Shown here: positions 12,055 to 28,031 of the stretch, piece after piece
Layout: every line of letters begins with the position of its first letter
Numbering within the stretch: position 1 is the stretch's first letter
Assembly (NCBI GenBank): GCA_009840005.1
Contig: VXOR01000035.1
Location: 1-64,000, forward strand
Direction of reading: 5' to 3'
From: Gemmatimonadota bacterium
GTDB lineage: Bacteria > Latescibacterota > UBA2968 > UBA8231
DNA: 64,000 bases
The notes under the pieces: model-generated
What the model was told of the DNA's origin: nothing
Seen by the model: the letters and a program-made list of their open reading frames with translations, nothing else
Database searches by the model: none
Program-made: the position numbers and the translations under genes

Positions 12055-14217
12055 TCACCCCAGAATGAAAACGGCGTTGCCGACTTTACCGGTGAAGTAG
12101 TCGATGACCAGCCAAATCCCGTTGCACAGGGCCTCGCCCATAATCAGGCCCATGAAGAAATGCTGACTCGTCCGATAGTGAGACGCCCCGCCAAAACGCA
12201 AGATCAGCTTCTTGAGCGCCCAAGCCAAGAGCACGCAAGCCCAGATTTTGTCGAGCATGAAGTTTGCGCCAATCGGGAAGCCGATTGGATGAAAGGGCCA
12301 CCACAAGAAGTGATGCCGCGCCCAAGTCAAAAGGCCCATGACCACGGCTCCACCAGCGAAAAACGCGAGTCCCAACCAGTCGGCTCCGGCTGGCTCTAGC
12401 GCGCGTTGCGCCGCGTTGTAGATGGTGGATGGGCCGCCGCGAAAGCGCCAGCTATCGAGATTGATGCCCCCGTACTTGTAGGCGAGGTGGAAGACCATCC
12501 AGCAGGAGCCCGCTACGCCGATGAAAATGGCTGCCACCAGCGCCCAGAAAACGACCCGCCGACTGCGGCGGTCCATGTTTTGGATCAGCTTCAAGCCATT
12601 GGCGACCATGGCCAGCAGGAAGATGCGGATGTCGGCCGACCAGATGTAAGCAAAGGAGAGGTTGAAGACGCCAGCCGCACCGATCGTCTGCGAACCAATG
12701 CCCTGCACGATGAAGTCTGGGGCGATCATGGGCGAGCGCACAGCCGCTAGGCCAGCCTCGCACACGACCCGCGAGATGCCGATAAACACCAATAGGGCTA
12801 CCATCGCAAATAGCGCGCCGACCCAGAGCGGGGTACCCATCAGCCACAGCCAGCCGACGATGCCTCCGCTGCCTAATAATACTCCGATCACGGCCGCTCG
12901 ATAGGACATGATTTCATCGCCGTCGTCGATGTCCGCATGGCGGCTGCGGGCCTTGCGCCATACGTCCCGCAAGTGGCCGCGCCCCGTCCACAGCCCCAAG
13001 AGTACCATGGCGATGAGTGCGCCGCCGCCCTGATAGGCCAAGAGCGGCTCGTACGAGACCCCATAGACGAATTTGCTAGTGGATTTGAGGCCGGATACGG
13101 CGAGGAATTCGGCTTCGACCTTGGAGAGCAAATAGAAAATCCAGATGCCGGCCGCTATTTGGGTGCTGATGAGATAGGAAAAGCCAACGAGCGCGAAGCT
13201 GATCCAGATTTGCAGGTTCTGCTGGCCGATAAAGGGCACCCACCAAATTAGGCCGAAATTAGGCAAGGACGGGTAGTATTGGTGCAGGGCTTTGAGGCTG
13301 CCGTACGCGAGCGGCAAGGCTGCGCCCCACCACAGGGCACCGTGCTTGAGAAAGCCGTTGAGCAGCCCGGTGCCGCGCTCGCCTTGCACGATGGCCACCC
13401 CGAGTTGGGTCAGCGGATAGGCCAACCGCTCGCGCTCGACCCACTGCCGACGCAAGATCACGGCCGTCGATACCATCGCCACGTATAGCGAGAGGAGTAG
13501 CAGTGCCCACCAGCACAGTGGCTCGACCCAAGTGGCGTAGGGAATGTCGGCGAGTGCGCCGCCCTCGTAAAAGCCGCGGTTGCCAGTGCCGTCATCGACG
13601 AGGATGCGCTGCGAGGGAAAGAGCGGAAAGAGCTTTTCAGCCCATTGGTTGGCCGGGGAGGCGTAGTAGAAAATGCCGGTGAGAGCGGGCAAAAGTTGCT
13701 GGGTCAGCCCCATAGTGCAGAGGGCGGAGACGACCAGCAGCATCGCGTACACTAGCACTAGCTCGGCGCGGTTCAGCGCGAGGGTACCTCCGCGCTGAAC
13801 CACGGGCACGTTCCACAGCGAAGAGAGGGCGAGGAAGGCGCCAAACCAAAAACCAGGCGAGTACCAATCGACCGCGTCGCGGCTGATCCAATAGCCACAA
13901 AAGCCGCCCGTGGCCAGCAGGGCTAGCCCCACTGCTAGGCGGAAGTCGCGGGCAGCGAGCTTGAAAAGCGTATTGAGCAAGCCGACCAGCACCAAAAATA
14001 GAAAGATGGCCCCTGGGGTATTGAAGTCGAAGGCCATGTTGGTCGCCCGCATCGCCATGTTGGCGTAGGGTGCGCCAATGGACAGGAAAAAGCTGAGGAA
14101 CGCACCGACCCAAAAGCCGCGCAGCGTTAGGTGCGAGCGGCCTGTGTCATCGGTGAGTCCCTCGTCTTGGCTGCCTTGGAGGTGCCGGCCATACGGAGAG
14201 GGTAGCGATCTATTCAC
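12055..14217 (-). CDS. Large polytopic membrane protein, DUF6785/DUF6784 type
   Basis: The product (720 aa from GTG 14217) has about 14 or more hydrophobic spans. Recognisable stretches are RGFWVGAFLSFFLSIGAPYA at the start, VERERLAYPLTQLGVAIVQG, LIWWVPFIGQQNLQIWISFA and RVVCEAGLAAVRSPMIAPDF. These match a family annotated only as DUF6785/DUF6784, common in Planctomycetes, Poribacteria-like and Latescibacteria-like genomes and distantly reminiscent of oligopeptide (OPT) transporters. I chose GTG 14217 because it overlaps the upstream stop as GTGA; the 32 residues before it are low-complexity and overlap the preceding gene. The transported substrate is unknown. Coupling with the peptidase gene suggests peptide or amide substrates (inference). 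Confidence 0.7.
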   Translation of the reverse strand: MNRSLPSPYGRHLQGSQDEGLTDDTGRSHLTLRGFWVGAFLSFFLSIGAPYANMAMRATNMAFDFNTPGAIFLFLVLVGLLNTLFKLAARDFRLAVGLALLATGGFCGYWISRDAVDWYSPGFWFGAFLALSSLWNVPVVQRGGTLALNRAELVLVYAMLLVVSALCTMGLTQQLLPALTGIFYYASPANQWAEKLFPLFPSQRILVDDGTGNRGFYEGGALADIPYATWVEPLCWWALLLLSLYVAMVSTAVILRRQWVERERLAYPLTQLGVAIVQGERGTGLLNGFLKHGALWWGAALPLAYGSLKALHQYYPSLPNFGLIWWVPFIGQQNLQIWISFALVGFSYLISTQIAAGIWIFYLLSKVEAEFLAVSGLKSTSKFVYGVSYEPLLAYQGGGALIAMVLLGLWTGRGHLRDVWRKARSRHADIDDGDEIMSYRAAVIGVLLGSGGIVGWLWLMGTPLWVGALFAMVALLVFIGISRVVCEAGLAAVRSPMIAPDFIVQGIGSQTIGAAGVFNLSFAYIWSADIRIFLLAMVANGLKLIQNMDRRSRRVVFWALVAAIFIGVAGSCWMVFHLAYKYGGINLDSWRFRGGPSTIYNAAQRALEPAGADWLGLAFFAGGAVVMGLLTWARHHFLWWPFHPIGFPIGANFMLDKIWACVLLAWALKKLILRFGGASHYRTSQHFFMGLIMGEALCNGIWLVIDYFTGKVGNAVFILG

Positions 14218-16856
14218 CGCGCGGTCTGGGGCTTGACGGTGCAGGTGGGACAGACGCGCCGCAGGTGTTCGCGCCGCACCTGCCACAGATCGTGGGCCTT
14301 CACCAATTCGCATTCGGCCTGCCCGACCTTGCCCCGCCGCTGCAACTTCCTCCGGTCGAGGGTTGAGTCCAGCTTATGGGTTGGAACCGGGCAGGGACCG
14401 CTGCGAAAGGCCAGCCCCAAGACCTCTTCTACAATCCCGTCCTCGCGCACGATGCGGTCTGGAATGGCAAAAGATTCAATGCAGCCGCAGGGCACGGACA
14501 TCTCGGCCACGTGATAGGCCGTGCTCGTGTCGTGCGTCGAGCCCAGCGCGAGGATGTAGCCACCGTCGTGGACCAATTTGCCGATCGGGCTATCTGGAGC
14601 CCAGATGCCAGCCTCGAGATGACCTTGGCAATAGTAGCTAGCGCGTGGCCCAATCGCCGCTACCGCGTGGGTGGGATGCATGCTGCGCTCGGCTTCGGTA
14701 CGCTGCCATAGCGCGTCCGGGATGGTGCCGTTGGTGGTGGGCGTGGTCAGCCGGTTGAAGACTTTTGCCGCACGGTGATTGAACGAAGGGGCCAACAGGG
14801 TCCCGCGCTTGCCAACCGCCTGCAAGAGCGCATCGACTACGGTCTCGGCACCGCCTTCGACAAAGCCGATGGCCGACAGGGAGCTATGCACCATCAGATC
14901 CATGCCTGGGGTGACGCCCAAGCGGCGCAAATCCCGCACCAGTTCCTTGCGGCCAATCGTATTGGCTGGGTCGATCAACTCGACATAGCCCAATTCGGCG
15001 TGTGCTGCGAAGTACTCGTGAACTCGAGCGACGGCGACGGAACCTTCCGTCCGTGGCCCGTCCGGATAGTCGGCTTCCTCGCAGGCAATGCGCTCGGCGA
15101 TTTCGCCTAAATTCCGGCGTCCGTCGGCCCAAAACAGCGCCCATGGCGGTAGCTGTGCGGCCGAGATGCGCGCGTTGATCGCGGCGGGTGCGTTCTCAGC
15201 GGTGGGTGAGAGCACGGCCGTGCGCCGCGGTACCAGCCGCGCTTGGGCCGTGCGTCGCGCTCGCTTGTCCGGCAGCGCGGCCTCGGCGGCGGCGGCCGCC
15301 ACTTGCCGCTCGCTATCGTCCATAGTCTCCAAGACTTCGCGCCGACTGCCTCCCCAGAGCCAGCGCGTGAGCCGCCGCACACTGCGACTGTGCGCCTCGC
15401 GCACGTATTCGACCTCGGCTTGAGGCCGCTTTTTCTTGTGCAATACAGAGAGAAAATGTTGGGTCTCGGTGCGGACCAGCTCCCCCACTTCGCGGCTGCC
15501 CATGTCGGCCAAGTAGTACAGATAGGCCGCCATTGAGGCCGCGCAGGTCTCCAGCCCCCGCGGACTGAGCAGGGCTTCCACGTCGGCCGAAGAGTGGTAG
15601 GCGTCGAAGCCGCGCCCGCTCTTGCGGTGATGGGTGGTGATCCAAGGGCAGGGAAATCCGTACTGGGGATCACCGATTAAGGTGTCAGACGTCGACATGA
15701 ATCGCGCTAGATGCACGCGATAGCCAGGCTTGTGTTGCCGCACCCCGGCCCGCACGATAGCCGCACCGACCCGATCGACGAAACCTGCCGACATGGGGAT
15801 CGTCGCGTGCCACTCTAGTCGGCCATCGCAGATGGCGGGTCGGGAGCCGATCGTGTCGATGCACACACCAGCCAAAGGGGTCTGCAAGCGCCGCACCCGC
15901 TCTAGATAGGCGAAGAACCCGTAGCACTCATAGGCGTTGAGCAGGCGAATGGTGCGCTTGGGGCGCGCGAGTTTGCCCGCTCGGATAAGCCTTTCGATCA
16001 CGCGGGCGATCTCCAAGGTGGTGGCCACGCCCGAAGCGTTGTCGATGGCCCCCGGCTCGGCGCTATGCGCGATGGCCCACACTTCGTCCTGCGGGTCGCC
16101 GGCTCCCTCGATGATGCCGCTGACCACGTCGTGGCTGCCGACGTATTTGCGGATGTCGGCTCGCACGTGCAGGGTCAGGGGGCCGCGTTGCTGCGCCAGC
16201 CGCCGCAACCGCTTCCCTTGCTGCTCAGAGATCACAAAGCCCACCAATTGCGCCGCCGCATGTTCGAGGGGAATTGCGCCCCACCCGAATTTGGTCCACG
16301 CCACTGCCTTGGGCAGGTTGGGTACCGGCCGGTCGGTGATGACGGCGGCGGCCCCTTTAGTGGCTAAAAGAGCGAGGTAGGAGCGCGGGTCTAGCTTGGT
16401 CAGCACAATAGCTCCTGCGAGTCCGTCGGTTGGCTGACGTTGGATGTCTTCGACTTGGTCGAGAACCACCAGCCGCAGCCGCAAACCATCTGCTGGGGTC
16501 GCCGCGCTCCACTGGATGACGTGCCAAGGATTCTCCTGCCAATCCAGTACTCGCTCGGTGAGCGGATGCACCACATCCACAGTCGCGCCCGCGACATCGG
16601 CGGCTTCGCGGATGATCCACCGGCCCGACCCCAGCCGCCCTCCGGTCTGGATGGATTCGACCTCCACGCGTGCGCCCGCGGCCTCGTAGCGGCTAGTTAG
16701 CGTGGCGGTCGTTTCGCCGAAGCGGTCAAATGAATTCCAGCGATCGGTCTGTACCACATCTCGCACCGCCGCCATCATCTTCTGTCCATTCGCCTGCTGC
16801 AACATCAGCGGCAGAGTTTGGCGACAAAGCTGCTGTAACGACTTTGCGCTAGGCAT
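14214..16856 (-). CDS. Fusion of M28-type aminopeptidase-like domain and AAC(3)-family acetyltransferase domain
   Basis: The product has 880 aa. Residues about 1-490 resemble M28-family (DUF4910-like) aminopeptidases with an inserted PA-like segment. Metal-site candidates are H264 and D272 in HSAEPGAIDNASG and E310 in NAYECYGF, although the second Glu of the usual EE pair is Cys. A middle region (about 590-625, WALFWADGRRNLGEIAERI) resembles a small winged-helix. The C-terminus (about 630-860) is an aminoglycoside N3-acetyltransferase fold: MDLMVHSSLSAIGFVEGG, KRGTLLAPSFNHR and the HPTHAVAAIG motif with its catalytic-type His. The start at 16856 has AGGAGGAGAGC directly upstream; the longer form (16907) would lack this. 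It heads the operon that continues to the membrane protein, propeller and TPR genes. Confidence 0.8.
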   Translation of the reverse strand: MPSAKSLQQLCRQTLPLMLQQANGQKMMAAVRDVVQTDRWNSFDRFGETTATLTSRYEAAGARVEVESIQTGGRLGSGRWIIREAADVAGATVDVVHPLTERVLDWQENPWHVIQWSAATPADGLRLRLVVLDQVEDIQRQPTDGLAGAIVLTKLDPRSYLALLATKGAAAVITDRPVPNLPKAVAWTKFGWGAIPLEHAAAQLVGFVISEQQGKRLRRLAQQRGPLTLHVRADIRKYVGSHDVVSGIIEGAGDPQDEVWAIAHSAEPGAIDNASGVATTLEIARVIERLIRAGKLARPKRTIRLLNAYECYGFFAYLERVRRLQTPLAGVCIDTIGSRPAICDGRLEWHATIPMSAGFVDRVGAAIVRAGVRQHKPGYRVHLARFMSTSDTLIGDPQYGFPCPWITTHHRKSGRGFDAYHSSADVEALLSPRGLETCAASMAAYLYYLADMGSREVGELVRTETQHFLSVLHKKKRPQAEVEYVREAHSRSVRRLTRWLWGGSRREVLETMDDSERQVAAAAAEAALPDKRARRTAQARLVPRRTAVLSPTAENAPAAINARISAAQLPPWALFWADGRRNLGEIAERIACEEADYPDGPRTEGSVAVARVHEYFAAHAELGYVELIDPANTIGRKELVRDLRRLGVTPGMDLMVHSSLSAIGFVEGGAETVVDALLQAVGKRGTLLAPSFNHRAAKVFNRLTTPTTNGTIPDALWQRTEAERSMHPTHAVAAIGPRASYYCQGHLEAGIWAPDSPIGKLVHDGGYILALGSTHDTSTAYHVAEMSVPCGCIESFAIPDRIVREDGIVEEVLGLAFRSGPCPVPTHKLDSTLDRRKLQRRGKVGQAECELVKAHDLWQVRREHLRRVCPTCTVKPQTAR

Positions 16857-16904
16857 GCTCTCCTCCTTTTTAGACCCTAATAAAGGTCGAGGCATGGATT
16901 GGAA

Positions 16905-16953
16905 CAAAAAAAGCGGAGAGCTAGCGGACGAAAACGTCCACCAACTCTCCGCT
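16905..16953 (-). terminator. Rho-independent terminator after the HTH gene
   Basis: On the minus strand a 9-bp perfect stem (AGCGGAGAG paired with CTCTCCGCT, 16953-16945 with 16920-16912) encloses an inner GGACG-AAAA-CGTCC hairpin and is followed by seven T (16911-16905). It lies 26 nt after the stop of the small HTH gene and separates it from the peptidase operon. Confidence 0.8.
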
Positions 16954-17906: not shown

Positions 17907-18227
17907 ATGTATTCGATTGGCTTAGCTATGCGGCTGCGCCCCAATGCGTATGCCGAGTACAAACAGGCCCACGACGACCTGTGGCCCGAAATCGCCGACA
18001 GCATGACCGACAACGAGGTCAGTATGGCCATCTACCGCTTGGACGAATACCTCATCATCCACGCGGTTGCTCCCACCGAGGAAGACTGGCTCAAGAGCCG
18101 CCAAGTTCCCGTCCTAGAAGAGTGGTACGACTACATGGCCCAGTTGCTGGAGACCGACGGCGAAGGGGAGATCATCTTCGAGGAACTACCCGAAGCCTTT
18201 GCCTTTGGAATGTTCAAGGAAGAGTAA
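17907..18227 (+). CDS. rhaM: L-rhamnose mutarotase family protein
   Basis: The product (106 aa) is a ferredoxin-like dimeric alpha/beta barrel of the L-rhamnose mutarotase family, which interconverts alpha and beta anomers of L-rhamnose (relatives act on L-fucose). Typical pieces are AMRLRPNAYAEYKQAHDDLW, where the H in KQAHDDLWPEI is the conserved His; a central strand SMAIYRLDEYLIIHA; and the C-terminal MFKEE. Length is standard (104-108). AAGGAG lies 7 nt before the ATG, and a strikingly AT-rich leader (about 17760-17900) precedes it. Its position 950 bp upstream of the BMC operon suggests that a methylpentose or its acid is the substrate of this region (inference). Confidence 0.88.
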   Translation: MYSIGLAMRLRPNAYAEYKQAHDDLWPEIADSMTDNEVSMAIYRLDEYLIIHAVAPTEEDWLKSRQVPVLEEWYDYMAQLLETDGEGEIIFEELPEAFAFGMFKEE

Positions 18228-18230
18228 ACG

Positions 18231-19034
18231 CTAGGCCGCTTGCACCGGGTTTTGCAGTCGGCCGATCTGGTCTATTTCCACGATTACCTCGTCGCCGGCT
18301 GTGAGCCACACGGGTGGTTGGCGCGCAAAACCCACGCCCTGCGGGGTGCCGGTAAGGATGACCGTGCCCGGCAGCAAGGTCGTATCTTGGCTGAGGAATT
18401 CGATTAGTTCGGCGACCGTGAAGATCATATCGCCAGTGGTGTGGTCCTGCATGGTCGCGCCGTTGAGGATCGTGCGGATGCCGAGGGTTTGTGGGTCGGG
18501 GATTTCGTCGGCTGAGACCAGTACCGGCCCCAAAGGGCAGAAGGTGTCAAAGCCCTTGCCGCGAATCCACTGGCCGCCGCCGCCGTTTAGCTGCCATTTG
18601 CGGGCTGAGACGTCGTTGGCGCACGTGTATCCGAGCACGTAGTTGAGAGCGTCGGCTCGCGCCACATTGCGGGCGGCCCTGCCGATTACCACCGCGAGTT
18701 CGCACTCGTAGTCAACTTCTGGGCCGTGGTTGCAGCAGGCTGGCAGCAGGATCGGGTCGCCCGGCCCGCAGACCGCGCTCGTGGGCTTGGCAAAGACGAC
18801 GGGCTGCTCGGGCGGCTCGAGGCCGGATTCGGCCGCGTGCTCGCGGTAGTTTAGCCCAATGCAGAAAATGTTGGTCGGGGCCAACGGGGCGAGCAGTCTT
18901 TTGACGGCCACCTGTTCGCCGGTGGGGACTAGTCTGTCGAAGAGATCGCCGGTGAGGACGGAGGCTTGGCCTCCCTCGGCTTCGAGGCCCCACTGGACGG
19001 CGTCGTCAGCGTCGATAAAGCGGATGATGCGCAT
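18231..19034 (-). CDS. Fumarylacetoacetate hydrolase (FAH) family enzyme
   Basis: The product (267 aa) has the FAH fold. Family members cleave C-C bonds of 2,4-diketo acids, hydrate or decarboxylate, using a divalent metal. Visible features are the IFCIGLNYREHAAESGL entry, the metal carboxylates E110 and E112 (VDYECELAVVIG) and D141 (CANDVSARKWQ), and the terminal LLPGTVILTGTPQGVGFARQ. One known subgroup hydrolyses 2,4-diketo-3-deoxy-L-fuconate or -rhamnonate in the non-phosphorylative deoxysugar pathway; the neighbouring rhaM makes this plausible but it is unproven. AAAGGAG precedes the ATG. It is divergent from the BMC operon and convergent with rhaM (3-nt gap). Confidence 0.85.
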   Translation of the reverse strand: MRIIRFIDADDAVQWGLEAEGGQASVLTGDLFDRLVPTGEQVAVKRLLAPLAPTNIFCIGLNYREHAAESGLEPPEQPVVFAKPTSAVCGPGDPILLPACCNHGPEVDYECELAVVIGRAARNVARADALNYVLGYTCANDVSARKWQLNGGGGQWIRGKGFDTFCPLGPVLVSADEIPDPQTLGIRTILNGATMQDHTTGDMIFTVAELIEFLSQDTTLLPGTVILTGTPQGVGFARQPPVWLTAGDEVIVEIDQIGRLQNPVQAA

Positions 19035-19172: not shown

Positions 19173-20585
19173 GTGTCCCAAAACGTCAGTGAAGAACACG
19201 TACGCAAAATAGTAGAAGAAGTGGTGCAGCGAGTCATCAGCGGTGGGAACGGCAGTGAGGGCGGGGACACTGGAGTCTTCGCGACGATTGATGCAGCCGT
19301 TCAAAGTGCGACTCGCGCCCAGCAGCAGTTGGTGACCTTGTCGCTGGAGGAGCGCAAAAAGATCGTCGAGGCCCTCCGGCAGACGGCCCACGTCCACGCC
19401 GAGGAATTTTCGCGGCGGGCTTTGGCCGAGACGGGCATGGGGCGGCTGGAAGACAAGATCATCAAGCACCAAGTCGCGGCCGACACAACGCCCGGCGTCG
19501 AAGACCTAGAGGCCACTTCGTGGACCGGCGATCACGGGCTGACCGTAGTAGAAATGGCTCCCTACGGGGTCATCGGCGCGGTCACTCCATCGACGCATCC
19601 CGTGCCGACGATGGTCAACAACGCCATTTGCATTGTCGCGGCGGGCAACTCGGTCGTCTTCAACGTACATCCGGCGGGCAGAAAGGTCTCCATGTTCGCG
19701 GTGGGCTTGATCAATCAGGCCATCGTCGCGGCTGGCGGCCCGGCCAATTTGGTGACCGCGGTCGAAACGCCGACCATTGAGACGGCCAACGAATTGTTCA
19801 ACCACCCAGACATCCGCCTGCTGCTGGTCACCGGCGGCCCGGGCGTGGCCAAGGCCGCGCTGGGCAGCCCAAAAAAGGCCATCGTCGCTGGTCCGGGCAA
19901 TCCGCCGGTGGTCGTTGATGAAACGGCCGATTTGGCCAAGGCCGCGCGCGATATCATCGATGGGGGCGGCTTTGACAACAACATCCTCTGCATTGGCGAG
20001 AAGCAGGTCTTTGCCGTCGCTTCCATTGTCGATGAGCTCAAGCGGCTGATGGTCCAATACAATGCATACGAACTCGAGGCGCGGCAGATCGAGGCGCTTG
20101 CGCAGGTGGCCTTTGTCGATGGGCCAGACGGACATCTCGTAGCCAACCGCGAATTGGTGGGGCGCGACGCCGCCGTGTTGGGCGAGCGTCTCGGCCTCCG
20201 GCTCGACTCGTCGCTACGCATGCTGATTGGCGAGACGGACGCTAACCACGTCTTCGTGCGCGAGGAGCAGATGATGCCCTTTCTGCCGGTCGTGCGCGTG
20301 CCCAACGTCGACCAAGCCATCCGCGAGGCCGTCATCTCCGAGCACGGCTACGGACACACGGCCGTGATTCATTCGCGCAACATCGAAAACATGCACAACA
20401 TGGCCTGCGCCGTGGATACCACCATTTTCGTCAAGAACGGGCCTTCCTACGCCGGGGTTGGCTTGGGCGGCGAGGGCTTTGGGACGTACTCAATCGCCGG
20501 GCCTACGGGCGAGGGCCTGACGTCGCCGCGCACCTTTACGCGCCAGCGCCGCTGCGCTCTCGTCGATTACTTCCGCATCACCTGA
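19173..20585 (+). CDS. BMC-associated CoA-acylating aldehyde dehydrogenase (PduP/EutE-like)
   Basis: The product (470 aa) converts an aldehyde, CoA and NAD+ to acyl-CoA inside the microcompartment. The N-terminus (SEEHVRKIVEEVVQRVIS, residues 6-23) is an amphipathic helix followed by a Gly/Ser linker, the standard encapsulation peptide of cargo enzymes. The catalytic domain shows APYGVIGAVTPSTHPVPTMV, the VTGGPGVAKAAL nucleotide-binding region and the active-site Cys in NNILCIGEKQVF. The end VDTTIFVKNGPSYAGVGLGG is typical of PduP/EutE. GTG start with GAGG upstream. The gene is first in the operon; its stop overlaps the next ATG. The aldehyde cannot be read from sequence; lactaldehyde fits the rhamnose-linked context. 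Confidence 0.93.
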   Translation: MSQNVSEEHVRKIVEEVVQRVISGGNGSEGGDTGVFATIDAAVQSATRAQQQLVTLSLEERKKIVEALRQTAHVHAEEFSRRALAETGMGRLEDKIIKHQVAADTTPGVEDLEATSWTGDHGLTVVEMAPYGVIGAVTPSTHPVPTMVNNAICIVAAGNSVVFNVHPAGRKVSMFAVGLINQAIVAAGGPANLVTAVETPTIETANELFNHPDIRLLLVTGGPGVAKAALGSPKKAIVAGPGNPPVVVDETADLAKAARDIIDGGGFDNNILCIGEKQVFAVASIVDELKRLMVQYNAYELEARQIEALAQVAFVDGPDGHLVANRELVGRDAAVLGERLGLRLDSSLRMLIGETDANHVFVREEQMMPFLPVVRVPNVDQAIREAVISEHGYGHTAVIHSRNIENMHNMACAVDTTIFVKNGPSYAGVGLGGEGFGTYSIAGPTGEGLTSPRTFTRQRRCALVDYFRIT

Positions 20586-20899
20586 TGCTCTTGGGTCAAG
20601 TCAAAGGGCACCTAATTTCCACGGCCAAGGTCCCGAGCCTGCACGGCAAGAAGCTCTTAGTCGTCGAAATCGCGTCGGTGCGCGAGCACGGCTTGGTGCT
20701 GACGGGGCGGGATATGGTTTGCATCGACGCGGTGCAAGCGGGCAAGGGGGAGTTGGTGATTTTGGTGCAGGGCAGTTCATCGCGGATCGCCCCGAACTTG
20801 GGCGATGTGCCAACCGACGCGGTAATCGTCGGGATCGTCGATTCGCTACAGGCGATGGGCAAGGACTTCGACTGTCGGCAACTGAGCCGCGAGGGGTAG
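20585..20899 (+). CDS. Pentameric shell vertex protein, BMC-P (EutN/CcmL family)
   Basis: The product (104 aa) caps the vertices of the polyhedral shell as a pentamer. The family pattern is clear: MLLGQVKGHLISTAKVPSLH, GKKLLVVEI, the ...DAVQAGKGELVILVQGSSSR beta-core with its GxG-V-L-V-x-x-G-S-S-x-R signature, and TDAVIVGIVDSL. ATG overlaps the upstream TGA (TGATG), so it is translationally coupled. It is the only pentamer gene in the locus, which is enough for a closed shell. Confidence 0.93.
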   Translation: MLLGQVKGHLISTAKVPSLHGKKLLVVEIASVREHGLVLTGRDMVCIDAVQAGKGELVILVQGSSSRIAPNLGDVPTDAVIVGIVDSLQAMGKDFDCRQLSREG

Positions 20900-20902
20900 G
20901 GG

Positions 20903-21574
20903 ATGGAAGCGGGTAGATTGGACCGCAAGCAGATTGAGGTGCTGGTGCGTCGGGTGGTGTACGATCACCTGCCCGACGCTCAGCTAGAGCAGGCACCTCC
21001 AGCCCCGAGGCTGGTCGTCAATATGTCCGCCCGTCACGTCCACCTCAATCGCACGGCGCTAGACGCGCTGTTCGGCGCGGGTGCCGAGCTGACTGTGCAG
21101 AAGGCTCTGTACCAAGAGGGTGCTTTCGCCGCCGAGCAGACGGTGTCGGTTTTCGGCCCGCGCAAGCAGGTGATTCCCAATGTGCGAATCCTCGGCCCCT
21201 TGCGTGATTACAACCAGGTGGAGCTGGCCTTTACGGACGCCCGCTATTTGGGTATTGACGCGCCGGTGCGGCTCAGCGGCAACATCGAGGGGACGCCGGG
21301 TTGTTACTTGGTGGGGTCGGCTGGGGGGTTGGAATTAGATCACGGGGTGATTCGGGCCGCTCGCCACGTGCATTTGAACCCGGCAGAGGCCGCATACTAC
21401 GGGGTCGGCCCAGGGGATTTGCTGCGACTGGTTGTAGAAGGCGATCAGGGTGGAGTCTTGGAAGGGCTGATCTGCCGCGTCAGCGAGCGGGAGCGCTTGG
21501 AAGTTCACATCGATACGGACGAGGGCAATGCGATTGATTTGGTACACGCCCGCAAGGTATATTTAGAGCGTTGA
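20903..21574 (+). CDS. pduL: PduL-type phosphate acyltransferase
   Basis: The product (223 aa) converts acyl-CoA and phosphate to acyl-phosphate and recycles CoA inside the compartment. Both halves of the tandem fold carry the zinc-binding signature: SARHVHLN in the first half and AARHVHLNPAEAAYYG in the second, with KQVIPNVRILGP between. The N-terminus (residues 6-24, LDRKQIEVLVRRVVYDHL) is again an encapsulation-type amphipathic helix followed by an Ala/Pro linker. The gene follows BMC-P by 3 nt. With the aldehyde dehydrogenase it gives the standard metabolosome core. Confidence 0.94.
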   Translation: MEAGRLDRKQIEVLVRRVVYDHLPDAQLEQAPPAPRLVVNMSARHVHLNRTALDALFGAGAELTVQKALYQEGAFAAEQTVSVFGPRKQVIPNVRILGPLRDYNQVELAFTDARYLGIDAPVRLSGNIEGTPGCYLVGSAGGLELDHGVIRAARHVHLNPAEAAYYGVGPGDLLRLVVEGDQGGVLEGLICRVSERERLEVHIDTDEGNAIDLVHARKVYLER

Positions 21575-21611: not shown

Positions 21612-22172
21612 ATGTCGGATGCAATAGGCATGGTAGAAACCGTGGGGTTGGTCGGGGTCGTCGAGGCCGGCGACGCCATGGCCAAGGCCGCCAGCGTCCA
21701 GCTTTTGGGCTGGGACCGAGTCGGCTCTGGCTTGGTGACTGTGTTTTGCTCAGGGGATGTGGCGGCTGTCAAGTCGGCCGTGGATGCTGGATCGGCCGCG
21801 GCGGCCAAGGTCGGGCAGGTGCATTCGGTGCACGTGATTCCCCGCCCACACAGCGAGTTGACGACCGTCGTACCCGAGCGCGGCGACAACGGCGACAGCG
21901 ATGACCGCGTCCGCGCCTTGGGTCTGATTGAGACGAAGGGGGCCATCGGCGTGATCGAAGCGGCCGACGCCATGAGCAAAGCCGCGGATGTGGAGATCGT
22001 CAAGCTACAGGACATCGGCGGCGGGTACATCACCGTCATCGTCAGCGGCGACGTTGGCTCGGTGCAAGCTGCGGTCAGCGCCGGTGCCGAGGCGGCCGAG
22101 CGCGTAGGCGAACTCGTATCGCAGCATGTGATCCCCCGTCCCCACGACGATCTCGTCGCGCTGTACTTGTAG
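21612..22172 (+). CDS. Tandem-domain shell protein, BMC-T (first copy)
   Basis: The product (186 aa) has two BMC domains (about 4-78 and 102-178) joined by a 23-residue Asp/Glu/Arg-rich linker. Each contains the GLxET-x-G...AGDAMAKAA opening and the terminal HVIPRPH signature. The putative pore loops read RVGSG in domain 1 and DIGGG in domain 2. Such proteins trimerise into pseudohexameric tiles. A very strong RBS (CAGGAGGTAAGG) precedes the ATG, consistent with a high-copy shell component. It is the third-longest of the shell proteins in the operon. Confidence 0.93.
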   Translation: MSDAIGMVETVGLVGVVEAGDAMAKAASVQLLGWDRVGSGLVTVFCSGDVAAVKSAVDAGSAAAAKVGQVHSVHVIPRPHSELTTVVPERGDNGDSDDRVRALGLIETKGAIGVIEAADAMSKAADVEIVKLQDIGGGYITVIVSGDVGSVQAAVSAGAEAAERVGELVSQHVIPRPHDDLVALYL

Positions 22173-22184
22173 AGGAGAGAAATA

Positions 22185-22448
22185 ATGAAAGCATTGGGTA
22201 TGGTCGAGACCCGCGGTCTGGTCTGTGTCGTCGAAGCCCTCGACGCCATGCTGAAGACCGCCGACGTGAGCTATGCGGGCCAAAAGCGCGTGGGCAGCGG
22301 CCTAATCGCCGTGCTGGTCGAAGGCGACGTAGCCGCAGTCAAAGCGGCCGTAGATGCAGGGGCGCAAGCCGCTCAGCGCATCGGAGAGCTGCGCAGCGTC
22401 CACGTGATTCCCCGTCCAACTGAGGGACTGACAGATCAACTTGGTTAG
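22185..22448 (+). CDS. Hexameric shell protein, BMC-H
   Basis: The product (87 aa) is a canonical single-domain shell subunit: [40 protein letters not shown] with pore-loop [21 protein letters not shown] and HVIPRP. Hexamers of this protein should form most facets. A GAGGAGAG RBS lies before the ATG. It is the only single-domain BMC-H in the operon. Confidence 0.95.
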
Positions 22449-22452
22449 CTAG

Positions 22453-22899
22453 GTGGCCAAGGCTTTGCACATTGACGCCCCGGTAGTAACCGGCGATTTG
22501 CTCGGACGCGAGCACAAGGGCGAGCGGACGCTGAGCGTGTCCCCTAGCGCCATCTTGACGCCGACGGCTTGGGACTACATCCGCCAGCACCGCTTGCAGC
22601 TAAGTCGTGGCGAGGCCGTTGCAGCTGCCGAGGCCATTGCGGATGTGGGCCGGTGCGAGCATCCCGACCGCGCCTGCGGCTGCGAGCACGAGGAATTTGG
22701 TTCGGGGTACGTCGAGCCGACGCGCTGTGGCGATTGCGCCGTCCACCAGCGCAAGCAGGCGGGCGATCCCGAGGCGAGTTGCGAGGGTTGCAACCGCTAC
22801 AAGACGCTTTTGCAACAAATTGAGCAGGGCCAAGCCACCGATCCAGAAGCCTTAGTTGAACAGATCACCGAGCTAGTAATTCACCGGCTGGCAGACTAA
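22453..22899 (+). CDS. Cys-rich BMC-associated protein with EutT-N-like mini-domain and C-terminal encapsulation-type helix
   Basis: The product (148 aa) has three parts. Residues 5-50 (IDAPVVTGDLLG...ILTPTAWDYIRQHRLQLSR) resemble the short N-terminal region of EutT/EutQ-like BMC proteins. Residues 65-115 hold seven cysteines (C68, C75, C77, C92, C95, C110, C113), including CGDC and CEGC pairs, suggesting an Fe-S or zinc site. Residues 129-147 (TDPEALVEQITELVIHRLAD) form an amphipathic helix like the encapsulation peptides of the aldehyde dehydrogenase and PduL. The mini-domain recurs at the N-terminus of the aldolase at 24643. GTG start 4 nt after the BMC-H stop. Function is unknown; a redox or adaptor protein of the lumen is my inference. 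Confidence 0.7.
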   Translation: MAKALHIDAPVVTGDLLGREHKGERTLSVSPSAILTPTAWDYIRQHRLQLSRGEAVAAAEAIADVGRCEHPDRACGCEHEEFGSGYVEPTRCGDCAVHQRKQAGDPEASCEGCNRYKTLLQQIEQGQATDPEALVEQITELVIHRLAD

Positions 22900-22902
22900 G
22901 CT

Positions 22903-23487
22903 ATGGCGGGCGACCCGGCAGTCGGCATGATTGAGGTGCAGGGCGTGGCCGCTGCCATTGTGGGTGCGGATGCGGCCTGCAAGGCCGCGGACGTTAAGCT
23001 CGCAGGTTGGTCGTCAATCGGCGGTTATACTACGGCCTTTTTCACCGGATCGATTAGCGATGTAGCTGCCGCGCTGCAAAGCGGCGAAGAAGCGTCCCGC
23101 AGCGTGATAGAACACGTGGTGGCCGCATCCCTACTCCAACCCGCTACCGCCTGCCACCAATTCGTCGATTTTCCGGTCCGGTCCGACAGTGACTTTCCCG
23201 CTGGTGCTTTGGGATTGGTCGAGACACGCGGCTATGGGGCTCACATTCACACCAACGATCAGATGGTTAAGACGGCTGCCGTCGAGGTAGTCAACGTGCT
23301 GACGGTCCACGACCGCGTGGTGTGTTCGCTGGTCTTGGGAGACGTAGGGGCCGTCAACGAAGCCATCGCCGTCGCGCAAAAGTTGCTCGCGGACTGCGAG
23401 CACTTGCTGGGCACGGCACTGATTCCGCAGCCGCGGCCCGAGGTTTTGGCTGCATACGCCGCGCCGATGGGAGGTAGCGGTGTCTAG
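22903..23487 (+). CDS. Tandem-domain shell protein, BMC-T (second, divergent copy)
   Basis: The product (194 aa) has two BMC domains (about 5-85 and 100-178). Domain 1 opens VGMIEVQGVAAAIVGADAAC with pore-loop region SIGGYT; domain 2 opens ALGLVETRGYGAHIHTNDQM with VHDRVV at the pore position, so neither pore loop has the usual GSG. Domain 1 ends in AASLLQPATACHQF rather than the VIPRP signature. This implies a tile with an unusual, possibly gated or ligand-binding pore. The stop overlaps the next start by 8 nt. Confidence 0.88.
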   Translation: MAGDPAVGMIEVQGVAAAIVGADAACKAADVKLAGWSSIGGYTTAFFTGSISDVAAALQSGEEASRSVIEHVVAASLLQPATACHQFVDFPVRSDSDFPAGALGLVETRGYGAHIHTNDQMVKTAAVEVVNVLTVHDRVVCSLVLGDVGAVNEAIAVAQKLLADCEHLLGTALIPQPRPEVLAAYAAPMGGSGV

Positions 23488-24628
23488 CGGGGCAATCGGC
23501 ATGTTGGAGACGCGCGGCATGGCGTCGCTGATGGCTTCTACCGATGCCATGCTCAAGGCCGCTGAGGTGCAACTATGCGGTCGGCACGGCATTGGCTCGG
23601 GTTGGCTCACCGCCGTAATCGCCGGCCAAGTGGCTGACGTGGAGGCGGCCATCCGCGTCGGCGAGGTCGAGGCCAACCGCACCGGCGAACTGATTGGTGC
23701 GCAAGTGGTGCCGCGACCAGATGCACGCGCCATGGATGCCATGCCCCACGTAACCGGCCTTGGTGCCGAACAGGTACAGCCACAGGCGATTGGCTTATTG
23801 GAGACGCAGGGCCTGACGCCGCTGGTGGCTGGTGCCGACGCCATGCTCAAGGCCGCCCAAGCGGAGCTAGGGGGTTGGGCCTTCATCGGGGGTGCGCTGT
23901 GTCATGCGCCGATCTTTGGCGATGTGGCGGCCGTGCAGACGGCGCTAGAAGTCGGTCGGCAAGCAGCCGAGCGAATCGGCACTGTGTACGCGACGCTCGT
24001 TTTGCCGCAGCCCAGTGCGGGACTAGGCCCTCTGTTGCCGCCTGCGCCAGCAGTCGAGCCGCGCTCTACCGGTGCCTTGGGCCTCATAGAGACCATTGGT
24101 TACGCCTCGGTCGTGGGCAGCGCGGACGCCATGCTTAAGGCCGCAGATGTGCAAATCGAGCGCTTGAGCATTGGCAGCGGCGGGCGAATTGCCGCGCTGG
24201 CCACCGGCCATCTCGACGATGTGCAGGCCGCGGTGTGCGCCGGGGCCGAGGCAGCCACGGCCTTGGGGGAGCTCAACGCCTCGGCCGTAGTCTCTAGACC
24301 CGATCCTGCGCTAGTCGCTCGCTTTGCGACCGCGGCCGAGGGCCTTGGCGCGGGTGCGCGGCAGGCCATGGGGTTGATTGAGACGCGCAGCACTGTGGCC
24401 TTGGTGCGGGCTGTTGATCGGATGCTCAAGGCTGCGGCTGTCGAATACGAAGGGGCCTATAAGGTGGGGTACTACTTGACGGCCGCGGTCGTGCGCGGCG
24501 ATGTCGGTGCCGTGCAGGTCGCCATAGATGCGGGTCGGGAAGAGGCCGTTGAACACGGGGAACTGGTTTCGGCCTACGCAATTCCACAGCCCTATAGCGG
24601 CCTCGAAGGCCGCCTGCCGCATGTTTAG
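23480..24628 (+). CDS. Four-domain BMC shell protein (quadruple BMC)
   Basis: The product (382 aa) contains four complete BMC domains in one chain, at residues about 4-80, 103-178, 198-275 and 296-372, separated by three linkers of about 20 residues (the second Pro-rich). Each domain has its own opening (AIGMLETRG, AIGLLETQG, ALGLIETIG, AMGLIETRS), a D-x-MLKAA helix (the repeats read TDAMLKAA, ADAMLKAA, ADAMLKAA, VDRMLKAA) and a closing VVPRP, VLPQP, VVSRP or AIPQP. Pore-loop positions differ: GIGSG, FIGGA, SIGSG and KVGYY. Known shell proteins have one (BMC-H) or two (BMC-T) domains, so this architecture is unusual. GTG start, coupled to the preceding BMC-T gene. No frameshift is needed; the frame is continuous. 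Confidence 0.92.
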   Translation: MSSGAIGMLETRGMASLMASTDAMLKAAEVQLCGRHGIGSGWLTAVIAGQVADVEAAIRVGEVEANRTGELIGAQVVPRPDARAMDAMPHVTGLGAEQVQPQAIGLLETQGLTPLVAGADAMLKAAQAELGGWAFIGGALCHAPIFGDVAAVQTALEVGRQAAERIGTVYATLVLPQPSAGLGPLLPPAPAVEPRSTGALGLIETIGYASVVGSADAMLKAADVQIERLSIGSGGRIAALATGHLDDVQAAVCAGAEAATALGELNASAVVSRPDPALVARFATAAEGLGAGARQAMGLIETRSTVALVRAVDRMLKAAAVEYEGAYKVGYYLTAAVVRGDVGAVQVAIDAGREEAVEHGELVSAYAIPQPYSGLEGRLPHV

Positions 24629-24642
24629 CGAGGACGCGAAAA

Positions 24643-25824
24643 ATGATTCGGATTGACGATGCAGTAATTACCGCGCAGACCTTGGAGGGTCGCCTAGCTG
24701 GCGAACGGCAGGTCGAGATCGGCCTAGGGTCTAAACTGACGCCCTCGGCGCAGGACTTGTTGCGCGTCCAAGGCGTTGAGATCGTGCGCCGGGAAGCCGG
24801 CGGCCAAGCTCCCCCAACGGCAACACTGGCACCAGCACCGGCACCAGCGGTTCCTCGCGCCGCCGGACGCCAAGCATTTGCTGGCATCTTCTGCCCCAGT
24901 ATCGTCCTTTTGGACAGCCACAACAGGATCAACCACGCCGAGATGGAGCGCTACATCAACTGGCTGATCGAGGCCGGGGTCCACGGGCTGTACCCCAACG
25001 GCAGTACTGGTGAGTTCGCGCGCCTGTCGCAGGAGGAGCGCCAAGACGTGGTGCGCTTGGTCTGCGAGGTCAATAAGGGACGCGTACCCGTCCTAACTGG
25101 AGCCAGCGAGGCCAACTTGCGCGATGTGCTCAAGATGGCCGAATACTACGCCTCGCTAGGCGTGGATGCCATTGCGCTGATGCCCCCCTATTACTACGAA
25201 ATTTCCACCGAGAGCCTCTTTGAGTACTTCGCCGAAATCGCCGAGGAATCACCGCTTGATATCCTGCTGTGCAATATCCCGCAGTTTACCCAAGAGTTGT
25301 CGATAGATTTGCTGGAGCGGCTCTTGCCCTACGATCTGATCTTCGGCACCAAGGACTCCAGCCGCGACCTGCCGAGGCTGCTCAACACCATGAACTGCCT
25401 ACGCCAACAGCGCCCCGACTACGTGGTGATGACTGGTTGCGAGGAGCTCGTATTTCCCTCGGTGCTCATGGGAGCCAGTGGGGGCACCATTGCCACCTCG
25501 GGCATCGTCCCGGAAGTCATCGTCGAACTTTATGAAAAGGCCAAAAGCGGTGACATCGAGCGGGCCCGCGAACTGCAATACCGCATCCTCGATCTCATCA
25601 ACTTGATGCTCTTAGGAGTCAACTTTCCAGAGGGCTTCAAGACCGGGGTGGCGGCTCGCGGCTTTGACGTAGGCCCAGCGCGCGCGTCGAGTAGCGCGTC
25701 CGAACAGGAGTACCTGATCAAGCTAGAGGCCCAAATCAACTGCGTCCTCGCGGATATGGGCTATCCAGTCCAAGGCCCCCGAGCCTGCCCGGCGACCAAC
25801 CTGCCGCCGATTGTCGGTCGCTAG
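24643..25824 (+). CDS. DHDPS/N-acetylneuraminate-lyase-family Schiff-base lyase with BMC-type N-terminal domain
   Basis: The product (393 aa) is about 90 aa longer than usual for the family. Residues 1-50 (VITAQTLEGRLAGERQVEI, then LGSKLTPSAQDLLRVQGVEI) repeat the mini-domain of the Cys-rich protein at 22453, and an Ala/Pro linker (56-73) follows. The TIM barrel (78-380) has NGSTGEFARLSQEE (119-132), the catalytic Tyr region PPYYYE (181-186) and the Schiff-base Lys K237 in FGTKDSSRD. The usual YNVPxRTG segment is CNIPQFTQ, so the DapA substrate Arg is absent. This argues against dihydrodipicolinate synthase and for an aldolase/lyase giving pyruvate plus an aldehyde, or a dehydratase. As the only non-core enzyme next to the shell genes it is the likely signature enzyme. 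Confidence 0.88.
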   Translation: MIRIDDAVITAQTLEGRLAGERQVEIGLGSKLTPSAQDLLRVQGVEIVRREAGGQAPPTATLAPAPAPAVPRAAGRQAFAGIFCPSIVLLDSHNRINHAEMERYINWLIEAGVHGLYPNGSTGEFARLSQEERQDVVRLVCEVNKGRVPVLTGASEANLRDVLKMAEYYASLGVDAIALMPPYYYEISTESLFEYFAEIAEESPLDILLCNIPQFTQELSIDLLERLLPYDLIFGTKDSSRDLPRLLNTMNCLRQQRPDYVVMTGCEELVFPSVLMGASGGTIATSGIVPEVIVELYEKAKSGDIERARELQYRILDLINLMLLGVNFPEGFKTGVAARGFDVGPARASSSASEQEYLIKLEAQINCVLADMGYPVQGPRACPATNLPPIVGR

Positions 25825-25979: not shown

Positions 25980-27056
25980 ATGGCCCTGACGGGTGCGTGC
26001 ACGTTGGTGGTCGGGGCCGGTATCATCGGTCGCTCGACGGCCTATTTCTTGGCCCGGCAAGGCGCGAAGGTAGTTCTGCTCGACGAGGGGATCCCCGCAG
26101 GCTCGTCCACGAGCCGGGCCTCGTTGGGCGTCCTCACCCACTGCAACGGCGGCGACAATCCCTACGCCCAGCTTTTCCGCGACGGCCACGCTCTGCACGC
26201 TCGGCTGGCCCGCGACCTAGCCGAAGACTTAGGCGCAGACGTGGGCTGGCGTCCCCTCGGCGGCATCGATCTTTTTGCCGACCCAGCCCAGCTAGAGGAG
26301 GTATGGCGCTTCAATCGCGAGCGCGGCTGTCGGGTCGAACGGCTCGACGAGCAAGCCCTGCGCGATGCGGAGCCGGGGTTGGACGGCGGCGGCGAGGGGC
26401 TGTATTTTGCCGATGATCACCGGGTGGATCCCCTCAAGTTGGGCGCGGCGCTTTGGGCGGCGGCCGTCCAGCGGGGCGCATCTGCCGCTTGGGGCGAGCG
26501 CGTTTGGCGCATTGCCCAAGAAGGCGAGACCGTCGAGGTCGCCACCAATCGCGAAACTCACCGCGCCGACTTTGCGGTGTTGGCGGCTGGGGCGTGGACC
26601 GGCGACTTGGCCGCCCAGCTTGGCGCTCAAGTCGCGCTGCGTCCCGTGCGGGGCCAACAAGCGCGTTTTGCCGGTGCCCCGCTGCGCCACCTAGTGAGGA
26701 TAAACGGACGCCACTTTATTCCAGAAGGCGGCGAAACGATCGTGGGAGCGACGTCGGAGGAGGTCGGCTTTCGGTTGGAGACGACCCGCGCAGCCGCTGT
26801 GCAATTTGCCACGGAGGTGCGCTCCGCGCTGGGGAGGTGTTTGCCGCTGGTGCGCCAACAGGCCGGTCTGCGGCCCAAGCCCCGAGGCGGGCGTCCGCTC
26901 ATCGGCCCGTTGACGGATACGCCGCGCGTTTTTGTGGCCTCTGGGCACTACAAAAACGGCGTCTTGCTAGGCCCGATTACCGGTCAGATCGTCGCCCGTT
27001 GGATCGCCGAGGGAACTCCAGGGCGCGACATGCGCCGCTTCGCACCCGAGCGTTGA
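25980..27056 (+). CDS. FAD-dependent amine/amino-acid oxidoreductase (DAO family)
   Basis: The product (358 aa) belongs to the D-amino-acid oxidase/glycine oxidase superfamily. The dinucleotide-binding motif is at the start (VVGAGIIGRSTAYFLARQGA), followed by VVLLDEG and SSTSRASLGVL. A substrate-domain segment is HRVDPLKLGAALWAAA. The C-terminal FAD-contact region is AGLRPKPRGGRPLIGPLTDT, then VFVASGHYKNGVLLGPITGQ, closest in style to ThiO-type glycine oxidases. Substrate is unknown. No strong RBS lies upstream of the ATG; the repeat tract just before it may have changed the original leader. It probably belongs to the BMC catabolic unit, feeding an imino or keto acid to the lyase-type enzymes (inference). 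Confidence 0.82.
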   Translation: MALTGACTLVVGAGIIGRSTAYFLARQGAKVVLLDEGIPAGSSTSRASLGVLTHCNGGDNPYAQLFRDGHALHARLARDLAEDLGADVGWRPLGGIDLFADPAQLEEVWRFNRERGCRVERLDEQALRDAEPGLDGGGEGLYFADDHRVDPLKLGAALWAAAVQRGASAAWGERVWRIAQEGETVEVATNRETHRADFAVLAAGAWTGDLAAQLGAQVALRPVRGQQARFAGAPLRHLVRINGRHFIPEGGETIVGATSEEVGFRLETTRAAAVQFATEVRSALGRCLPLVRQQAGLRPKPRGGRPLIGPLTDTPRVFVASGHYKNGVLLGPITGQIVARWIAEGTPGRDMRRFAPER

Positions 27057-27089
27057 ATTCATCGTCACCTAACACAGTTGAGGTTAAAC

Positions 27090-28031
27090 ATGCCATTGCA
27101 AAAAGAAGACCTACTCGCCGCGCTAAACTCGGTTACCTCCATTCCGGTGATCCCTTTTCGCGGCGGGCAAATCGATTACGAGGCTCACGCCAAGAACATC
27201 AACTACTTGATGGAGAACAATCACTTGGACGGCGACCGACCCCGGGTGATCGGTATCGCTGGCACCAGCTTGATCCACCACATTAGCGCGGACGAGCAAG
27301 TGCGGCTGTTAAGCTCTACCGGCAAGCAGATGGGAGGGCGCGGGGTGCTGATGTCCGGGATTGCCCCCAATCCGGTGGGGGATGCCGAGCGGTTGATCGA
27401 GCGGGAGGCCGCGCTTGAATATCCCCCGGATGTCTATCTGGTCATGCCGCTTACAGGCGTGGCCAGTCCAGAGGGCATTTTTGCGTACTACATGGATTTT
27501 GCCGAGCGGTTGGGGCGTTCGTGTGGGGCCAAGTTGCTCTACTACCTGCGCAACCAAGCCGAGCGCGAGATAGCCGTGCGGCTGATGAACGAGTCCGAGC
27601 ACTTCGTGGGGCTGAAGATCGGCACCACGGTTGATGATGTTGAGCCGATTGTCGCGGGTGTGGAAGAAGGGGCTGCGCTGGTGATTTGGGGCGTGGGGGA
27701 CCGTTCGACTGGGCCGGCTGAGCGCGGCACCAAGGGGCATACGTCGGGGATTAACGTGGCCTTTGCCCGCGCTTCAGACGAGATCAACAACGCCCAGCGC
27801 CGGGGCGATTTTGCGACCTCGCAGCAGATTGAAGACAAGCTTGCGGCCCTAGAGGGAATTCGCTTCCGCAACGGCCGCATGTACAACTACTCGGCTGTGG
27901 TTGAAGCTATGCACTTGGGGGGGTTCAGCGATGTGGATGGTGGCGAGGGTGGTCCGTTCAATCCGCGGGTGCCGGCGGAAGTGGCCGAGGAAGTGGCTGC
28001 GGCTATAGCAGACATTGTGGACTATCACTAG
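27090..28031 (+). CDS. Second DHDPS/NAL-family enzyme
   Basis: The product (313 aa from ATG 27090, with GAGG 6 nt upstream; a TTG at 27078 is the alternative) is a class I lyase-type TIM barrel. Matches are the IPVIPFRGGQIDYEAHAKNI N-terminus, IGIAGTSLIHHISADEQ in place of GTTGEF...LSxEE, LLYYLRN, and K176 in FVGLKIGTTVDD as the expected Schiff-base lysine. The usual PxYY tyrosine is replaced (VMPLTGVA), so the mechanism or even the reaction may differ; dehydratases and deaminases of this family exist. It is 34 nt after the FAD oxidase gene. It lacks the N-terminal BMC mini-domain, so it probably acts in the cytosol. Confidence 0.8.
   Translation: MPLQKEDLLAALNSVTSIPVIPFRGGQIDYEAHAKNINYLMENNHLDGDRPRVIGIAGTSLIHHISADEQVRLLSSTGKQMGGRGVLMSGIAPNPVGDAERLIEREAALEYPPDVYLVMPLTGVASPEGIFAYYMDFAERLGRSCGAKLLYYLRNQAEREIAVRLMNESEHFVGLKIGTTVDDVEPIVAGVEEGAALVIWGVGDRSTGPAERGTKGHTSGINVAFARASDEINNAQRRGDFATSQQIEDKLAALEGIRFRNGRMYNYSAVVEAMHLGGFSDVDGGEGGPFNPRVPAEVAEEVAAAIADIVDYH

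Follow-up and report, generated by a model that had tools for sequence, protein, structure and literature searches.

The window, a stretch of 64,000 nucleotides, carries a row of genes for bacterial microcompartment (BMC) shell proteins and enzymes, all on the plus strand. Among them is Q, a BMC protein of four domains, which lies between T2, a BMC protein of two domains, and DHDPS1, an enzyme of the DHDPS family. The features are as follows (D2 to D4 with the limits of an earlier note on this DNA, which agree with the model).

19173..20585, plus strand: acylating aldehyde dehydrogenase of the EutE/PduP kind (NF011927, 650.6 bits, cut-off 403)
20585..20899, plus strand: BMC-P (EutN/CcmL; PF03319)
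20903..21574, plus strand: PduL-type phosphotransacylase (PF06130; NF011652, 221.2 bits, cut-off 209)
21612..22172, plus strand: T1, an ordinary-looking two-domain BMC-T of 186 aa (PF00936 twice; short stem branches in the domain tree)
22185..22448, plus strand: H, a BMC-H of 87 aa (PF00936 once)
22453..22899, plus strand: X148, a protein of 148 aa with a module common with DHDPS1 (22453-22614), a Cys-rich middle and an amphipathic-looking C-terminal helix
22903..23487, plus strand: T2, a two-domain BMC protein of 194 aa directly upstream of Q (PF00936 twice), proposed partner with two of six tile domains
23470..23482, plus strand: ribosome-binding-like GGAGG (23470-23474) and, after it, the GTG with which Q starts, both within the end of T2 (sequence read)
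23480..24628, plus strand: Q, a four-domain BMC protein (PF00936 four times; AlphaFold2 model)
23492..23719, plus strand: domain D1 of Q, residues 5-80, pore loop RHGIGSGW (best PF00936 stretch; loop conservation)
23786..24013, plus strand: domain D2, about residues 103-178, pore loop WAFIGGAL (model strands; loop conservation)
24071..24304, plus strand: domain D3, about residues 198-275, pore loop LSIGSGGR (model; loop conservation)
24365..24595, plus strand: domain D4, about residues 296-372, pore loop YKVGYY (model; loop conservation)
24643..25824, plus strand: DHDPS1, a DHDPS-family protein (class I pyruvate lyase/aldolase; PF00701) with an N-terminal extension and an A- and P-rich linker, proposed aldehyde-making cargo
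24643..24798, plus strand: N-terminal module of DHDPS1, common to X148 (hhalign probability 98.7, E 2.1e-16, 51 columns)

The gene set resembles that of a metabolosome in which a pyruvate aldolase supplies the aldehyde. A CoA-acylating aldehyde dehydrogenase and a PduL phosphotransacylase, two of the enzymes by which a metabolosome is recognized, are both found above their NCBIfam cut-offs. The FRAG types of BMC in the 2021 catalogue are made of scattered shell genes with a triplet of BMC-P; within the window, the part of the genome covered, the locus has one BMC-P. X148 has a weak match to the end of the ethanolamine utilization family TIGR02536. Next to the locus, at 17907-19034, are genes for a rhaM-like mutarotase (PF05336) and a hydrolase of the FAH family, and the FAH gene occurs in part of the related loci. 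On the minus strand, an 897-aa frame (14214-16907) combines peptidase M28 and Antibiotic_NAT (aminoglycoside 3-N-acetyltransferase family) domains, and a DUF6785 and DUF6784 protein (12055-14313) has distant relatives of 29-32% near Q in loci L011-L014 and L017. After the operon, at 25980-28031, lie genes for an FAD enzyme that resembles ThiO and D-amino acid oxidases and for a further DHDPS-family protein, a remote one; they may belong to an amine or amino acid pathway. Among the other loci, L020 and L021 hold two T1-H pairs each, a duplication of ordinary shell genes, with a single T2-Q pair, and single-domain BMC proteins with a non-BMC C-terminal extension of about 60 residues are found at 491-1114 of L067 (minus strand) and 640-1137 of L068.

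The frame of Q is open from a GTG start through 382 aa to the stop at its end. PF00936 matches it in four stretches with 251.5 bits against a gathering score of 24.5 (whole-protein E 3.7e-76), so Q belongs to the PF00936 family; its best stretch, residues 5-80, covers profile positions 1-75 of 75. The AlphaFold2 model, computed from an alignment of 33 homologs, has four BMC domains with a pLDDT of 89.6 and a pTM of 0.88. The earlier note had read four complete BMC domains in one uninterrupted frame, at residues 4-80, 103-178, 198-275 and 296-372, and this reading is borne out by profile and model alike: the first strands of the modelled domains begin at residues 4, 103, 199 and 296. The domains are unpermuted, with profile positions 1-75 in order and the strand and helix order of BMC-H in each. 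BMC-H proteins have a single PF00936 domain and form homohexamers, and Q has four domains; BMC-T proteins have exactly two, and four are found in 145 of the 149 homologs listed; the circularly permuted fold of BMC-Tsp and BMC-Tdp is not present in Q.

The four pore loops are each marked by residues of their own. In the alignment of the 145 four-domain homologs, His36 and Trp42 of D1 are kept in 97% and 99%, Trp133 and His142 of D2 in 100% and 99%, Arg236 of D3 in 100%, and Lys328 and Tyr331 of D4 in 97% and 96%. This fixation of domain-peculiar loop residues is far beyond chance. As the earlier note states, the pore loops differ and the domains are not redundant. The lysine of a D-x-x-x-K motif is kept in all four domains (100, 99, 100 and 99% of the 145); in PduA this is the lysine at the tile edge. 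Single domains of Q superpose on the subunits of shell hexamers at about 1 Å.

A protein search with Q gave 789 matches, of which 120 were listed, and a second search with a longer query, in which 7,996 candidates were scored, gave 126 with again 120 listed. Together the listed homologs are 149 different proteins, one of them the window's own. By a profile built for this analysis, 145 have four domains and four have three, the latter all of 285-322 aa. A scan of GTDB R220 contigs, seeded by two short peptide patterns that distant relatives can escape, found 22 loci with Q (L001-L022). Their titles name Gemmatimonadota or Gemmatimonadetes, Latescibacterota or Latescibacteria, Handelsmanbacteria, one Gemmatimonas phototrophica MAG and one uncultured bacterium. 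The 15 genomes taken from these loci all lie inside one phylum of 64 genomes, in which Q matches 27. A plasmid search returned three records with best identities of 41-45%, which are ordinary BMC proteins or unannotated.

In five pairwise comparisons between close orthologs, dN/dS of Q is 0.06-0.12 over the whole gene and at most 0.14 in any domain. One genome (G064; L051/L066) has intact genes for T2 and the DHDPS enzyme, but its Q is broken by a frame change after D3 and before D4. Either a sequencing error or a genuine split could account for the break. A Q split 3+1 in this genome was considered as a natural variant and rejected, since it looks like a frame change and a near relative, G063, reads through that point. 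This broken copy would fit an assembly artefact or a decaying gene. Against that reading, 145 of 149 listed homologs are four-domain, records titled as whole chromosomes carry Q (L003, L005), the low dN/dS holds in all five comparisons, and the four domains differ among themselves. We regard its probability as close to nil. An assembly-made fusion of two BMC-T genes, which the earlier note had named as one way its reading could fail, is thus set aside by the four-domain homologs, the 27 of 64 genomes and the low dN/dS in all four domains.

The T2 and Q genes overlap by 8 bases (23480-23487), and this layout, with the ribosome-binding-like motif inside the end of T2, suggests a translationally coupled pair. 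A T2 profile search of the same phylum found T2 in 26 of the 64 genomes, once in each, and all 26 are Q genomes. A comparison of coordinates places T2 immediately before Q, in the same orientation, in 25 of them; in the 26th (G063), whose contig was read, Q is cut by the contig end and T2 is followed by the first part of Q. In the one Q genome in which T2 was not found (G056), a contig starts within Q, and no more than the last 143 residues of the protein are encoded on it. T2 is also upstream of Q in 22 of 22 loci, with -2 to +24 nt from the T2 stop to the first base of D1. In five loci (L011-L014, L017) the other shell genes of the window, H and T1 included, are absent from the stretch examined, and T2, Q and the DHDPS enzyme are still together. 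Two genomes with intact Q and T2 (G006, G007) have eight PF00936 matches each: two in T2, four in Q and one in each of two single-BMC-domain proteins, one with a C-terminal extension and the other, in G006, being the 93-aa frame of L023. By these counts, which cover PF00936-visible domains, no second multi-domain BMC protein is seen in either. Cryptic BMC domains of CcmP-type proteins can escape PF00936, according to the available text of PMC4207490. Within T2, residues Leu133, Thr134, Val135 and Arg138 of its second domain (T2b) are invariant in 17 T2 proteins.

Six BMC domains make one hexagonal tile. One hetero-tile of Q and T2 is suggested because four and two are six and because T2 always adjoins Q. 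Q would not tile alone; it would pair 1:1 with T2, and the 4 + 2 domains would close a single hexagonal tile. Its positions would be taken by six different domains in fixed order, with a fully asymmetric pore. We consider it probable that T2 and Q form such a 1:1 hetero-tile as a shell protein of a metabolosome-type microcompartment; the stoichiometry of 1:1, the closed ring, the place in the shell and the job of the two proteins are what we infer. We also lean towards a natural tile without any symmetry, in which two chains (4 + 2) bring six different domains in fixed order, with six position-specific pore loops, into the service of one aldolase.

Descent and structure both agree with this picture. 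In a tree of single domains (84 rows from ten loci), D1, D2, D3, D4, T2a and T2b each form a clade of their own, in 98-100% of 200 bootstrap trees and with long stems, while the stems of T1 and H are short; the tree is built on 80 columns and its deep forks are unsure. Separate descent and own fixed loop residues would be expected for the six domains if each ring position has one job. In the Q model, D3-D4 superposes on the tandem fusion 6ner at 1.5 Å over 178 residues, and D1-D2 of a six-domain model does so at 1.7 Å over 178 residues. As both superpose on 6ner, at least these two pairs are adjacent in the ring. The six-domain model is of T2 and Q of locus L015 as one chain of 568 aa, obtained by reading through the T2 stop, and AlphaFold2 gives it a pLDDT of 91.0 and a pTM of 0.89; only 2 of its 40 alignment rows hold both T2 and Q, and the short read-through linker may itself have placed T2 beside D1. 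A first alignment had put T2 rows on D2-D3, and the rows of the co-fold were picked, before any model was seen, such that T2 rows fall on T2.

Further signs of a single tile were looked for. It was predicted beforehand that natural BMC-T chains would match the first and the last domain if the ring closes; no natural BMC-T chain appears among the 50 rows listed, though the aligner may be unable to jump such a gap. Covariation between domains gives no signal, even between covalently joined neighbours, the sequences being few (effective number 25 for 51 T2-Q pairs and 67 for 145 Q rows). Of the 51 pairs, 27 were matched on the assumption that contigs of equal length are the same and 24 come from loci, and some genomes enter twice under different start codons or coordinates. 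No natural six-domain T2-Q fusion occurs among the 120 listed of the 126 matches, whose lengths are 366-424.

The earlier note had argued that three Q chains, with twelve domains, must fill two tiles. The single chain of four non-redundant domains stands; the necessity of two tiles is not supported, since T2, upstream of Q in 26 of 26 T2 genomes, would supply the missing two domains. The argument took Q alone and overlooked its neighbour. Two tiles per three Q chains, namely a D1-D2 trimer and a D3-D4 trimer, stacked or side by side, with T2 as a homotrimer of its own, would accord with the trimers formed by BMC-T, with the stacked trimers of BMC-Tdp described in the available text of PMC8217296, and with the superposition of D1-D2 and D3-D4 each on a two-domain ring unit. 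Adjacent T2 and Q genes would also be compatible with two distinct tiles produced in equal numbers. However, the domains of Q follow the profile from 1 to 75 in order and are not circularly permuted, unlike those of BMC-Tdp; the pTM of 0.88 for Q alone places four domains confidently in one chain, which would disfavour loosely tied tiles; and no reason is given for T2 as constant upstream neighbour. We hold this arrangement to be unlikely. The single tile is the most economical reading, and the two-tile reading is less so.

Alternatively, the two missing positions of a Q tile could be filled by T1 or by a pair of BMC-H subunits, giving a mixed tile. The window's locus has genes for both, paralogs are known to share tiles, and D4 groups weakly with H in the domain tree (88/68). 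But the constant neighbour is T2 and not H; the five loci that lack H and T1 in the stretch examined, and the two genomes with intact Q and T2 in which no second multi-domain BMC protein is seen, make mixed tiles improbable. More improbable still is a Q that forms no facet tile and acts as an inner scaffold or dock tying the shell to DHDPS1. Q and DHDPS1 do adjoin in all 27 Q genomes, and with four unlike domains Q would have more than one face for binding; against it stand the fit of the Q domains to shell hexamer subunits and the tile-edge lysine known from PduA, retained in all four domains.

DHDPS1 starts 14 bases downstream of Q. In all 27 Q genomes and all 22 loci it is the next gene after Q, and the order T2-Q-DHDPS1 is invariable. 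Two genomes without Q have a relative of DHDPS1 with 47-48% identity, and the match (55-377 of 393) lies outside the N-terminal module. The motifs GSTGE and KDSS, as expected for class I pyruvate lyases, are found in all 12 loci looked at. As the candidate for the signature aldehyde-making enzyme of the locus, DHDPS1 has PF00701 and stays below every NCBIfam cut-off listed. The module of about 50 residues that it shares with X148 is possibly a docking module. From the conservation of DHDPS1, its motifs and this shared module, we propose a cargo enzyme that would dock via its N-terminal module and release pyruvate and an aldehyde inside the compartment; the aldehyde would then be converted to acyl-CoA by the aldehyde dehydrogenase, to acyl-phosphate by PduL and finally to the acid. 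The T2-Q tile would be an asymmetric gate and/or dock for DHDPS1 and its sugar-acid type substrate. That the tile is dedicated to this adjoining aldolase is a tentative suggestion, for which the odds are below even.

As for the substrate, a 6-deoxy sugar acid that would yield lactaldehyde is a guess. The FAH-family gene reaches 220 bits to 2,4-didehydro-3-deoxy-L-rhamnonate hydrolase (cut-off 500), and the fucose genes of C. jejuni are a precedent for a DHDPS-family enzyme. The L-rhamnose or fucose acid route stays a guess because the rhaM-like and FAH-family genes are seen in only part of the loci. The ThiO-like FAD oxidase after the operon, present in 16 of 22 loci, would be just as compatible with an amino acid substrate; routes from hydroxyproline or a D-amino acid were considered on its account, and no model reaches its cut-off.

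A literature search that covered mostly titles and abstracts, with main-text passages of freely available papers, brought up no four-domain BMC protein; the earlier note likewise knew of none. The 2021 catalogue (PMC8217296) describes BMC-H, -Hp, -Ts, -Tsp, -Tdp and -P, and its main text, as far as available, does not contain "quadruple", "four BMC", "four domain" or "dihydrodipicolinate". The available text of the 2014 BMC taxonomy does not contain "four BMC". According to the available text of a 2015 paper, single-cell genomes of Latescibacteria encode a BMC for fucose and rhamnose; a four-domain protein is not mentioned there. "Dihydrodipicolinate" and "bacterial microcompartment" co-occur only in two papers, both unrelated. 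The locus may also represent a kind of metabolosome, built around a DHDPS-family enzyme, of which the search found no description. The shell tiles described in the literature searched either consist of a single type of chain, with one or two domains, or mix single-domain paralogs. If the T2-Q tile is real, its six fixed and different positions mean that the shell hexagon has evolved to full asymmetry, as other ring proteins did. The selection of metabolites by the pore, an open question, would become directly accessible, as six loops could be changed singly, and engineering would gain a tile with six addressable positions and a defined orientation.

A comparison of the window locus with PVM-type and other sugar metabolosomes (PMC8217296, available text) shows a common set of aldehyde dehydrogenase, PduL, BMC-P and BMC-H, with an aldolase as likely source of the aldehyde. 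PVM uses a class II aldolase (PF00596), whereas the candidate here is a PF00701 DHDPS-family enzyme. CcmO of the beta-carboxysome (NF053792) is the best NCBIfam match of Q, with 263.2 bits, below the cut-off of 270, in three stretches that reflect repeated domains. Both have tandem unpermuted BMC domains, and some JGI entries of the Q family are named CcmO; CcmO has two domains, according to the available text of PMC3425506, and the Q locus is not a rubisco-type locus. The unpermuted BMC-T proteins (BMC-Ts; PduT, HO-5812) likewise have tandem unpermuted PF00936 domains and are expected in hexagonal tiles. They have two domains and Q has four, so that three Q chains would bring twelve, too many for one tile. 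In the carboxysome heterohexamers CcmK3/CcmK4 and CsoS1A/B, two gene products share one tile (PMC11606499, available text). Their chains are single-domain and mixed arrangements are possible, whereas the Q chain fixes the order of at least four positions.

Among solved chains, the tandem BMC-H fusion 6ner of a synthetic Haliangium ochraceum shell is the best sequence match to Q (E 2.8e-34; 60 of 63 matches listed) and also the best structural match to D3-D4 and D1-D2. The longest solved chain among the same 60 of 63, with 342 aa, is a capsid-CcmK4 fusion. Natural BMC-T chains, taken as a pair, superpose at about 14-17 Å in Foldseek and fit no stretch of Q that it chose (14.7-16.7 Å). Because 6ner superposes and natural BMC-T pairs do not, domain neighbours in Q seem to run round the ring opposite to those of BMC-T. 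6ner is engineered and has one domain twice, whereas Q is natural and has four different domains.
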